This document shows, in pieces, positions 57,070-60,697 of a stretch of DNA of 64,000 nucleotides. The position numbers and the translations under genes were made by a program. Each line of letters opens with the position of its first letter. Position 1 is the first letter of the stretch. The stretch comes from Roseitalea porphyridii (GTDB lineage: Bacteria; Pseudomonadota; Alphaproteobacteria; Rhizobiales; Rhizobiaceae). Location of the stretch: the NCBI RefSeq assembly GCF_004331955.1, contig NZ_CP036532.1:682001-746000 (forward strand). Direction: 5' to 3'. The notes under the pieces were generated by a model, which worked only from the letters and a program-made list of their open reading frames with translations, searched no databases and had not been told where the DNA came from.

Positions 57070-57623
57070 AGGGCAAGGCCGACGCTGATGATCAGTTCGG
57101 CCGCCACGAAGGCGATCGCGGTCGGCGGCGAACAGTCGAGCGCGGCCCGCATCAGCCGCACGGCGGCGACGAGCACCGCCACCAGCAACACGATGCCCAG
57201 AAGTCCGAGGATCGCATGGCCCTGGGGCAGGACCAGGTAAGGCACGAACAACGCCGCCATCACGTAGCTGAAGAAGGCGTTCGCCCAGTTGCGCACGATG
57301 ATCAGGTGGGCGAAGCGATGGCCGAGGCCCAGCGGCTTGAGGATGACCGCGAACACCGCGACCGGCAGGAGCCAGCCGACCAGCGCGAGGATCGCTTCGG
57401 TCGCCACCAGAGCGGCGAGGCTCGACCCAGGCGCCGCCGCGACGTTGGTGGTCGCCGTGATCACCCAGATGAAGAACAGCGCGGGCAGCGCCACGACGAT
57501 CGCCGAGAACGAACGCCAGAACCCCTCCGCCGAGATGTCCATCCGGTCGAGCGCGCCCGGTCGCCCCACGATGATGCCGAAGACGCTCTCGAGGTGATGG
57601 AAGGCGTAGTCCAGACTGATCAT
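57036..57623 (-). CDS. five-helix membrane protein (Yip1-like)
   Basis: A 195-residue inner-membrane protein with about five hydrophobic segments (for example [20 protein letters not shown] and [20 protein letters not shown]). The layout and the [20 protein letters not shown] start are of the Yip1-like type found next to dapE in Rhizobiales. The ATG overlaps the dapE stop as ATGA, so translation is coupled to dapE. No catalytic residues are seen; function unknown. Confidence 0.78.
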
Positions 57624-58825
57624 TCGGCGCCTTGTCCGGCGAACCAGCGGGTGATGAAATCGGCGTAGATGGCGGTCAGGGTCTCCAGATCGTCGAGCGC
57701 GACATGCTCGTCGATCATGTGCATCGTCCTGCCGACCAGGCCGAATTCGACCACGGGGCAGTAATCCTTGATGTAGCGCGCATCGGACGTTCCGCCCGAA
57801 GTCGACAGTGCCGGCGTCCGGCCGGTGACCGCCGTCACGCTCTGTGCCAGCGCCTCGGTGAGCGCGGCATTGCGGGTCAGGAAAACCGGGCTCACCGGCG
57901 CCATCCAGTCGAGCCTGAATTGCACGGGGCCGGCCTTGCCGGGACGCAACGCGCTGTCCTCTGCGGCGCGCGCGAGCCGGCCCTCGATCTCGGACTTCAG
58001 CGTCTGCTCGGTCCACCGGTCGTTGAACCGGATATTGAAGGTCAGCGTGGCCGTCGCCGGAATGACGTTGGTCGCCCGGTTGCCGGTGTCGATTGTCGTG
58101 ATCTCGAGGTTCGAGGGCTGGAATTCGGCGCTGCCATCGTCGAGCGGCGGTGCGACCAGCGCGGCCCCGAGCGCCAGGGCCCCGCGCAGCGGATTGTCCG
58201 CGCGATGCGGATAGGCGACATGGCCCTGCGTTCCGCTGACCGTGATCGTACCGGTCAGCGAGCCGCGCCGGCCGATCTTGATCATGTCGCCCATCGCGTC
58301 CGGGTTGGTCGGCTCGCCCAGAAGACAGGCGTCCCATGCTTCGCCGCGCTCGGCCGCCCATCGCAGCAGCTTGGCGGTTCCGTTGATCGCCGGGCCTTCC
58401 TCGTCGCCGGTGATCAGCAGCGACACCGCGCCGGCGGGCGCCTCGCCACGTTCGACCAGCCTAGCGAGGGCCGCGACGAAACAGGCGATGCCGCCCTTCA
58501 TGTCCACCGCGCCGCGCCCGAACATGGCGCCATCGGCGATCGCCGCGCTGAACGGATCATGGCTCCATCCCGACACATCGCCCGGCGGCACCACGTCGGT
58601 GTGCCCGGCGAACATCAGGTGCGGTCCGTCGCCGCGACGGCGCGAATAGAGGTTTTCGATGTCGGCGGTGCCTTCCTCGGCGAAGACCGGCCGCTCGCTG
58701 ACGAAGCCGAGCGGCGCGATCATCCGTTCGAGCGTTCCGAGCGCGCCGGCATCGTCCGGCGTGACGGACGGGCATCGGATCAGGGCGGCAAGGTTTTCGG
58801 CGGGCTCGGTCGGCAGCTTGGTCAT
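57620..58825 (-). CDS. dapE: succinyl-diaminopimelate desuccinylase
   Basis: Removes succinate from N-succinyl-L,L-DAP in lysine and peptidoglycan synthesis. The 401-residue M20 peptidase-fold protein has [11 protein letters not shown] with its His and Asp, [14 protein letters not shown] with the bridging Asp, [13 protein letters not shown] with the catalytic Glu pair, [13 protein letters not shown] and [14 protein letters not shown]. The start at 58825 (MTKLPTEP) was chosen over a GTG nine bases upstream. dapD, its pathway predecessor, lies 3 kb upstream on the same strand beyond the accessory stretch. Confidence 0.94.
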
Positions 58826-59284
58826 GGGGCGCACTTAGCCAAAGGCAACGTTCCTGTCACGCGCGATGGCCGGCCTCAAGACGGCCGGTCCGATCACATC
58901 GCTCACGAAACGCGTGAGAACGCCCTTCTTCATCCCGCTGGCCGCGCTTCATGGCGGTCCAGTCTTGCGCCTCGGGGGTAACGACAAACCGGTTTGCGTT
59001 CACACATCGCTGAACGCAATGGCTCCGGTACGTGAACGACGCGGCGCGGGTCACGTGACACGTGATTGTCCCATTTCATTCAAGTCATTGGTATTAAAAA
59101 GGAAAATTGTGTCGTAAGGCGCACCCCGCAGCAGGTCAAGAACACAGAGGCGTGAGCCGGCTTACGATTTCGTCATTGGCAGTTTGCCGACCCGCCGCCC
59201 CATCTTCCGGTCAGCCAAGGCGAACAGACGAAACGTCGCCGAAGCGCCCCGAACGGGGATGAAACCAACCGAATGGAGATGAAC
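58826..59284. other. 459 bp gene-free spacer upstream of the tandem secreted-protein genes
   Basis: No credible frame is present on either strand. The stretch contains the dapE promoter side, an inverted repeat GGCCGGC/GCCGGCC-like pair near 58868-58888, the double CACGTG element at 59050-59064 and an AT-rich run (GGTATTAAAAAGGAAAATTG at 59090-59109). These probably include the promoter for the first tandem gene. Nothing resembling a transposon end or attachment site was seen. Confidence 0.5.
59050..59064. promoter_or_regulatory. overlapping CACGTG palindromes
   Basis: The perfect 10-bp palindrome GTCACGTGAC at 59050-59059 is followed by a second CACGTG at 59059-59064, with centres 7 bp apart. 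It lies about 220 bp upstream of the first tandem gene and about 225 bp from the dapE start. It is a good candidate operator, but no regulator can be named. Confidence 0.45.
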
Positions 59285-59587
59285 ATGAAAACCATCCTGA
59301 TCGCAGCCGCCGTTGCTCTGACCGCCACCACCGGCGCCTTCGCCCAGTCCACGGCTCTGGACGTGTACATGCCCGCACCGAGCCAGTCCGGCGTCGACTT
59401 CTCGGCAACCGCCTCGATCGGCGAAACGATGGACTATGTCGAGCGTGGCCGCCTCGGCGATGGCTCGCCGGTCTACATCAACCGCGACCGCGGCATCGAC
59501 TTCACGCCGACCGCATCGATCGGTGGCGGCAATGCCGACGAGCCGTTCCGCGCACGCCTTGGCGACGGTTCGCCCGTCTACAACTGA
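59285..59587 (+). CDS. secreted two-repeat small protein, copy 1
   Basis: A 100-residue protein that I do not recognise. A signal peptide of 20 residues ends GAFA. The mature part has a short head (QSTALDVYMPAPSQS) and two copies of one motif: residues 36-66 (G-V-D-F-S-A-TASIG ... RGRLGDGSPVYIN) and 70-100 (G-I-D-F-T-P-TASIG ... RARLGDGSPVYN). No cysteines, no membrane segment after the signal. The start at 59285 has GGAGA seven bases upstream; an ATG 12 bp earlier is less likely. It is the first of two nearly identical tandem genes. Confidence 0.82.
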   Translation: MKTILIAAAVALTATTGAFAQSTALDVYMPAPSQSGVDFSATASIGETMDYVERGRLGDGSPVYINRDRGIDFTPTASIGGGNADEPFRARLGDGSPVYN

Positions 59588-59636
59588 ACCAGGCACCTGA
59601 GCGTGCTTCGGACATCGACCCAACAGGAGAAATGAC

Positions 59637-59939
59637 ATGAAAACGATCCTTCTCGCGGCAGCCTTTGCTGTCACTGCCACCACCGGCGCCTTCGCCCAGT
59701 CCACGGCTCTGGACGTGTACACGCCCGCACCGAGCCAGTCCGGCATCGACTTCTCGGCAACCGCCTCGATCGGCGGAACGATGGACTATGTCGAGCGTGG
59801 CCGCCTCGGCGATGGCTCGCCGGTCTACATCAACCGCGACCGCGGCATCGACTTCACGCCGACCGCATCGATCGGTGGCGGCAATGCCGACGAGCCGTTC
59901 CGCGCACGCCTCGGCGACGGTTCGCCCGTCTACAACTGA
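59637..59939 (+). CDS. secreted two-repeat small protein, copy 2
   Basis: A 100-residue paralogue of the gene 352 bp upstream. From codon 14 to the stop (264 nt) the two differ at only four bases, giving M29T, V37I, E47G and one silent change. The first 13 codons differ at nine bases. The signal peptide cleaves after GAFA, as in copy 1, and the same two internal repeats follow. AGGAG stands seven bases before the ATG. The 49 bp between the two genes holds no hairpin, so they are probably co-transcribed. Likely periplasmic or surface-exposed; function unknown. Confidence 0.83.
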   Translation: MKTILLAAAFAVTATTGAFAQSTALDVYTPAPSQSGIDFSATASIGGTMDYVERGRLGDGSPVYINRDRGIDFTPTASIGGGNADEPFRARLGDGSPVYN

Positions 59940-59966
59940 CGGTCCGCCCGGTGGGCCTTACAAGAC

Positions 59967-59999
59967 GGGACCGCACGCCCTACGCCGGCGCGCGGTCCC
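59967..59999 (+). terminator. probable terminator of the tandem secreted-protein genes
   Basis: GGGACCGC (59967-59974) and GCGGTCCC (59992-59999) form an 8-bp stem around a GC-rich loop 28 bp after the second stop. A T-rich stretch (CTGATTTTGATT) follows about 9 bases later. Confidence 0.5.
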
Positions 60000-60112
60000 G
60001 CAGTAAACTGATTTTGATTGGCTCCCGATGCATCCCCGTCTCAAGGTGGACTACAGTTGGATGAGGACCACGACGCCCACACCGGGCGTCAGGTCATGGT
60101 GGGGTTGGGGCC

Positions 60113-60697
60113 ATGTTGGTAAGGACCGGACTGTCGATCGCACTGTTCCTGTCGCCCTTGGCTCTGTCGTCCGCGCTTGCCTCCTCCTGGCTGACCACCG
60201 GCCGCAGCGCCTCGGTCCCCTACGGACACATGGAATACTGTCAGCGCCACCGCTACGATTGCGGCCGCCATGGCGGCGTCGGCGCACTGGCGGATGCGCG
60301 TCTTGCCACGCTCAACCAGGTCAATCTGGCCGTGAACCGCTCCATCGAGCCGATGTCCGATCAGAAGGCGCACGGGACGCGCGAGATCTGGCTCGCGAGC
60401 ACAAGCGCCGGAGATTGCGAGGATTATGTCCTTGCCAAGCGCAACAAGCTTCTGCGTCGCGGCTTCAAGCCCGGCCATCTTCGCATCGCGGTTGGCCGCA
60501 GTCGCGGCGAGGTGCATGCGGTGCTTGTCGTCAGGACGACGCAGGGTGATCTGGTGCTGGACAACAACACCGACGAGGTGCTTCCGGTAAACCGATCGCG
60601 CATGCGTTTCGCCAAGCTTCAGTCGGCGACCGACGCAGCGAAATGGGTGCGGGTGACGGGCCGCACGGGCGACCCCGATCGCGTCACGCTGCGCTGA
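60113..60697 (+). CDS. bacterial transglutaminase-like cysteine peptidase (BTLCP family)
   Basis: A 194-residue exported cysteine peptidase-fold protein. The signal peptide ends near ALAS (residue 24). The catalytic triad is visible: Cys102 in AGDCEDYVLAKR, His135 in GEVHAVLVV and Asp150 in LVLDNN. Cys43 and Cys50 in YCQRHRYDCG may form a disulfide, as in other members. Some relatives (LapG) cleave surface adhesins when c-di-GMP falls, but no LapD-like partner is here. It follows the tandem secreted-protein genes on the same strand; a functional link is only suggested. Confidence 0.86.
   Translation: MLVRTGLSIALFLSPLALSSALASSWLTTGRSASVPYGHMEYCQRHRYDCGRHGGVGALADARLATLNQVNLAVNRSIEPMSDQKAHGTREIWLASTSAGDCEDYVLAKRNKLLRRGFKPGHLRIAVGRSRGEVHAVLVVRTTQGDLVLDNNTDEVLPVNRSRMRFAKLQSATDAAKWVRVTGRTGDPDRVTLR

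Follow-up and report, generated by a model that had tools for sequence, protein, structure and literature searches.

Tandem genes for small, apparently exported repeat proteins recur beside one branch of BTLCP proteases in Rhizobiaceae

Two tandem genes for small, apparently Sec-exported repeat proteins lie in the window, a 64,000-nucleotide stretch of the Roseitalea porphyridii genome (NZ_CP036532.1, positions 682,001 to 746,000), which is assembled as one 3.54-Mb contig. The array is set between dapE (57620-58834, minus strand, encoding an M20 peptidase) and the gene for a BTLCP cysteine protease. The features of the locus, in window coordinates, are as follows.

59161..59206, plus strand: conserved promoter-like block (EM motif), in which a TTACG-ATT-TCGTCA dyad overlapping TTGGCA is followed by a spacer of 17-18 nt and CCCATCTT
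59285..59587, plus strand: copy A, a 100-aa, apparently exported two-repeat protein (open reading frame, leader MKTILIAAAVALTATTGAFA, match to the family profile)
59393..59419, plus strand: core 1 of copy A, VDFSATASI (a core shared by 60 of the 62 family proteins)
59495..59521, plus strand: core 2 of copy A, IDFTPTASI (core survey)
59637..59939, plus strand: copy B, a 100-aa, apparently exported two-repeat protein (open reading frame, leader MKTILLAAAFAVTATTGAFA, match to the family profile)
59745..59771, plus strand: core 1 of copy B, IDFSATASI (core survey)
59847..59873, plus strand: core 2 of copy B, IDFTPTASI (core survey)
59966..60000, plus strand: very stable hairpin, CGGGACCGCACGC..GGCGCGCGGTCCCG, in the interval between the array and the protease gene, with no T-run; the same stem is found in sister genomes G004 and G001
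60113..60697, plus strand: secreted BTLCP cysteine protease (Peptidase_C93) with catalytic C102, H135 and D150 (PF06035, 162.2 bits against a cut-off of 27)

Both copies have a predicted signal peptide, which by inspection ends in ...GAFA before QS, and a mature part of about 80 aa. Each protein contains two repeats of the form [VI]DF-x2-TASIG ... R-x-RLGDGSPVY, at approximately residues 37-64 and 71-99, and cysteine is absent from both. The copies differ at 13 nucleotides, 9 of them in the 39 nt of the first 13 codons and 4 in the remaining 264 nt (Fisher p = 2e-6 for the contrast between leader and mature part). Three of the four changes in the mature part alter a residue (M29T, V37I and E47G) and that at L92 is silent; six of the nine leader changes are synonymous. 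An earlier description based on the letters of the window (the sequence-only reading) had reported the same counts, which are exact on recount, and its three residue-altering changes, two motif copies per protein and lack of cysteine are likewise confirmed.

That reading did not recognise the protein family, and our searches bear this out. Neither copy scores above the cut-off of any Pfam or NCBIfam family, the window copies have no match in PHROGs and no significant match in the PDB, and our literature searches recovered no description of the family. Searches of Rfam returned only sub-threshold matches, all on the opposite strand. DUF680 (PF05079), which likewise comprises small proteins whose function is yet unnamed, matches two family members weakly (best E 0.005), and was rejected: the best score listed for a relative is 15.9 bits against a 24-bit cut-off, and the window copies do not match. 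DUF4148 (PF13663) was also rejected, copy A scoring 11.1 bits against a cut-off of 27, mostly from its leader. Since lysine is absent from mature copy B, self-cross-linking of the repeat protein by a transglutaminase was discounted. AlphaFold2 returned a pLDDT of 41 for the repeat protein from a 10-sequence input, which we do not take as disorder, because the BTLCP, whose fold is known, also gave only 42 from a shallow alignment.

A profile search, as the sequence-only reading had proposed, showed relatives to be essentially restricted to several genera of Rhizobiaceae. Within the GTDB family Rhizobiaceae, sampled at one genome per species, 30 of 398 genomes have matches at E <= 1e-3, and in the weakest of these the matches are mostly to the leader. 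Outside Rhizobiaceae, searches of the order and the class recovered no convincing members, the matches there being weak or limited to the leader. Clear carriers mostly have tandem arrays; relatives keep arrays of 2 to 4 copies, with up to 12 copies per genome. On this ground the dosage need suggested by the sequence-only reading stands as plausible rather than established. The Hoeflea-like genome G074 has 12 copies among the matches listed, in four arrays, one of them on a 123-kb contig. Two of its loci (L050 and L051, contig C1, at 2.04 and 3.58 Mb) are near-identical segmental arrays in opposite orientation and with unequal copy numbers. The window genome itself has a third, single-repeat paralogue (L003, 1495-1698; C1:3349021-3349212, minus strand) that adjoins a transposase fragment, IS110-like by inspection, and could be a fragment moved by an IS110-like element.

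The core, a hydrophobic residue followed by D-[YF]-T-A-[TP]-A-[SA]-[IV], occurs 73 times, in 60 of the 62 family proteins. Where the window copies read TASIG, repeat 1 of G004 reads TAAIG. Distant three-repeat relatives with NDRYGDAAP ... DYSGTAAIGA are present in G131 (L065, 3429-3740) and G202 (L066, 3615-3926), two genomes without the BTLCP branch described below. In a BTLCP-adjacent relative from G237 (L143, 3369-3620), the core alone is doubled head to tail, IDHTATAAIDHTATAAID.

The interval between dapE and the BTLCP gene holds an array in sister species as well. The copies counted, three or more in G004 and two or more each in G001 and G002, are lower bounds, as draft contigs or gaps break inside the array. 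Within a genome the mature parts differ by 0-4% (4/240 in the window, up to 10/234 in G004 and 0/78 in G001), whereas at the same locus the window and G004 are about 30% apart (63-73 of 195-234 positions). This supports the suggestion of the sequence-only reading that recombination has homogenised the mature part. Synonymous divergence, which the same reading had proposed to compare between leader and mature part, points the same way: A and B have a dS of 0.47 in the leader and 0.02 in the mature part, and for B compared with G004 the values are 0.48 and 0.70. Since the leaders of A and B are as far apart at silent sites as those of different species, and the mature parts are nearly identical, the two copies look old, with mature parts that were recently homogenised and the first 13 codons of copy A left out. 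Gene conversion or unequal crossing-over would keep the copies alike. Relaxed constraint on the first codons, which the sequence-only reading had offered as an alternative, fits poorly with the mostly silent leader changes, the dN/dS of 0.16 in the copy A leader and the identity of the G004 and G001 leaders (0/36 nt differ), which leaves copy A as the lone outlier and the contrast specific to it.

A recent simple duplication, in place of an old pair that conversion has made alike, would also yield mature parts that differ by only 4 nt. We regard it as quite improbable, however, given that the leader dS of A and B equals the interspecies value and that the arrays of G001, G002 and G004 occupy the same site and are homogeneous within each genome where readable. 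Homogenisation is not universal: genus g14 has kept its two copies distinct, and they group by position. As a bacterial example of concerted evolution among genes for tiny secreted proteins the array is clear-cut, and such arrays of tiny genes tend to break in draft assemblies.

The promoter-like block upstream of copy A is conserved in G001, G002 and G004. Across 26 upstream regions from several genera, the EM motif combines TTGGCA or TTTGAAA, overlapped by a TCACA-N4-TGTG dyad, with CCCATYT 16-18 nt further on; the second half-pattern followed by a TCATCG-like sequence occurs in 13 of the 26, against 0.135 in shuffles. Because the block is common to arrays at different loci, it seems to travel with the gene. 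Comparison with published RpoH (CTTGAA-N15-16-CCTATAT), ChvI and CenR motifs gave no fit good enough to name a regulator, and neither a sigma-70 promoter scan nor a T-tailed terminator scan gave a match. In Hoeflea-type intergenic regions (L049, L051, L056, L008, L009 and L053), a conserved CCTCCCAAGACA-like element lies shortly before the ribosome-binding site of the second and later copies.

The BTLCP gene downstream encodes a protein of 194 aa with a signal peptide. Its C102/H135/D150 triad and its GDCED motif, with the calcium-site Asp/Glu adjacent, are conserved by alignment. Most sampled Rhizobiaceae genomes have one to five BTLCP proteases. Fourteen genomes of five genera have a same-strand BTLCP gene 175-444 bp downstream of an array, where 0.001-0.004 such adjacencies per genome are expected by chance. 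The settings include dapE/dapD (g1 and g83), an ABC transporter gene that we read as urtE-like (g14), an ABC-2 transporter with an EptA-like gene (g71) and FAD-oxidase/purD (g25). When the window BTLCP was searched against 151 genomes, 10 of the 13 best loci retrieved had adjacent arrays and none of the next 17 did. Included here are three further genera, g75, g17 and g120, in which the BTLCP is flanked by relatives that match the repeat protein weakly (E about 1e-2 to 1e-6), with the core DYTAPASI and then RFGDASP. The order BTLCP-array is seen as well as array-BTLCP.

Of the 76 BTLCPs placed in a tree, the 19 with an array neighbour all fall in one branch of 26, and none of the other 50 has such a neighbour. 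Among the seven unpartnered members of that branch, six are second paralogues of Hoeflea type whose genomes have the repeat protein at another place; loci L139, L141, L142, L145, L146 and L147 each hold such a second BTLCP without an adjoining array. The partnered branch has the full triad and GDCED, but a glycine that other BTLCPs keep ahead of the catalytic histidine is missing from it. Partner labels require 3 changes on the tree, against 17.3 in shuffles, a test that counts related genomes as separate and uses a set chosen in part through the repeat protein, so that the independent settings are the stronger argument. Nor are the carrier genomes independent, because several genera share one ancestral dapE/dapD site. 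Adjacency is common rather than obligatory, because arrays without a BTLCP neighbour exist at the edd locus of Hoeflea-like genomes and in G230 and G368. Sister genome G003 showed no repeat protein and no BTLCP from the partnered branch.

Given these patterns, the downstream BTLCP is unlikely to be a chance neighbour of the array, and a functional link of some kind between the two is, in our judgement, highly likely. The shared dapE/dapD site does mean that part of the count traces to a single ancestral event, as it would if history alone had placed an array of unrelated role beside the protease; at least four different settings, both gene orders, the joint absence in G003 and the negligible chance expectation make such hitch-hiking very improbable. 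It is rather probable that a distinct alphaproteobacterial BTLCP branch has a dedicated partner in a tandem, fast-evolving exported repeat protein, which the protease would cleave or which would control the protease. The array genes belong to an undescribed Rhizobiaceae family, and we propose as its partner a single branch of BTLCPs (LapG superfamily). As to the role of the repeat protein, we lean, with reserve, towards that of a BTLCP substrate, since its core is rich in alanine and the exported protein that carries it is encoded next to the protease, as some LapG substrates are. The two proteins would meet in the periplasm, where the BTLCP would recognise the near-universal core and may cut the repeat protein there. 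With one or two sites in each molecule, the array would provide these at high dose, and the outcome could be the release of a product or a protease kept occupied by the repeat protein. Points against a substrate are that the core TA[SA]IG differs from the LapG consensus [T/A/P]AAG, that some arrays have no BTLCP neighbour, and that the distant relatives in G131 and G202 are found in genomes lacking this branch.

Adjacency and branch specificity would fit equally well if the repeat protein were not cut at all and acted as an inhibitor that restrains the protease in the periplasm, or as an activator or chaperone. High copy number suits a stoichiometric regulator, and the partnered branch is altered at the residue before the catalytic histidine. 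We nevertheless consider a regulator unlikely and rank it after a substrate, as the mature parts change rapidly from species to species (dN 0.27) while the core is kept, a pattern closer to that of a recognition site embedded in a carrier that varies, and a structured inhibitor domain is not recognisable in the repeat protein. Ranked after it, and to our minds also doubtful, is the possibility that both genes act in a common process of the envelope or surface, for example a stress response or the control of surface polysaccharide, and are co-inherited without direct contact. The Caulobacter BTLCP HvyA controls capsulation (PMC4241560), arrays at different loci have a promoter-like block in common, and some arrays stand away from any BTLCP. 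That a single BTLCP branch is partnered, and that the pair recurs side by side across settings, favours direct cooperation.

The repeat protein as a BTLCP substrate therefore remains our preferred reading. Our literature searches found no named direct target of alphaproteobacterial BTLCPs, and a small co-encoded protein with one or two near-universal motifs is a concrete candidate for a substrate or regulator. The relation between array and protease goes beyond the sequence-only reading, which missed the meaning of the adjacent protease gene, the single-repeat paralogue and the promoter-like block. The short binding or self-assembling module that it envisaged is not borne out; the evidence favours a partner protein, in the form of the adjacent BTLCP.

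LapG-type BTLCPs cut between the two alanines of [T/A/P]AAG and need calcium, and their described targets are large adhesins, often encoded nearby (PMC13090378, PMC6890996). LapG-LapA and its kin in Pseudomonas, Vibrio and Desulfovibrio thus resemble the present pair in having a secreted C-H-D BTLCP beside an exported partner with an Ala-rich motif. For the LapD_MoxY_N receptor (PF16448) of the Lap system, no match came from 12 genomes, and none from any control genome either. The pairs also differ. The window BTLCP scores 31.9 bits, far short of the cut-off of 320 for the LapG equivalog NF045674. Where LapA-type substrates are giant type 1-secreted adhesins with a retention module and the [T/A/P]AAG scissile motif, the partner here is a tandemly encoded protein of 100 aa with a signal peptide, about 80 aa when mature, apparently Sec-exported and carrying TASIG in the window copies. 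HvyA is likewise an alphaproteobacterial secreted BTLCP with the same triad, and it restricts capsulation via its catalytic residues; its gene sits in a capsule export locus, and the accessible part of that account names no direct target and mentions no small repeat-protein partner there (PMC4241560). If our reading is correct, the array and its BTLCP would form a protease-partner system of another kind than LapG-LapA, where large adhesins are the known targets.
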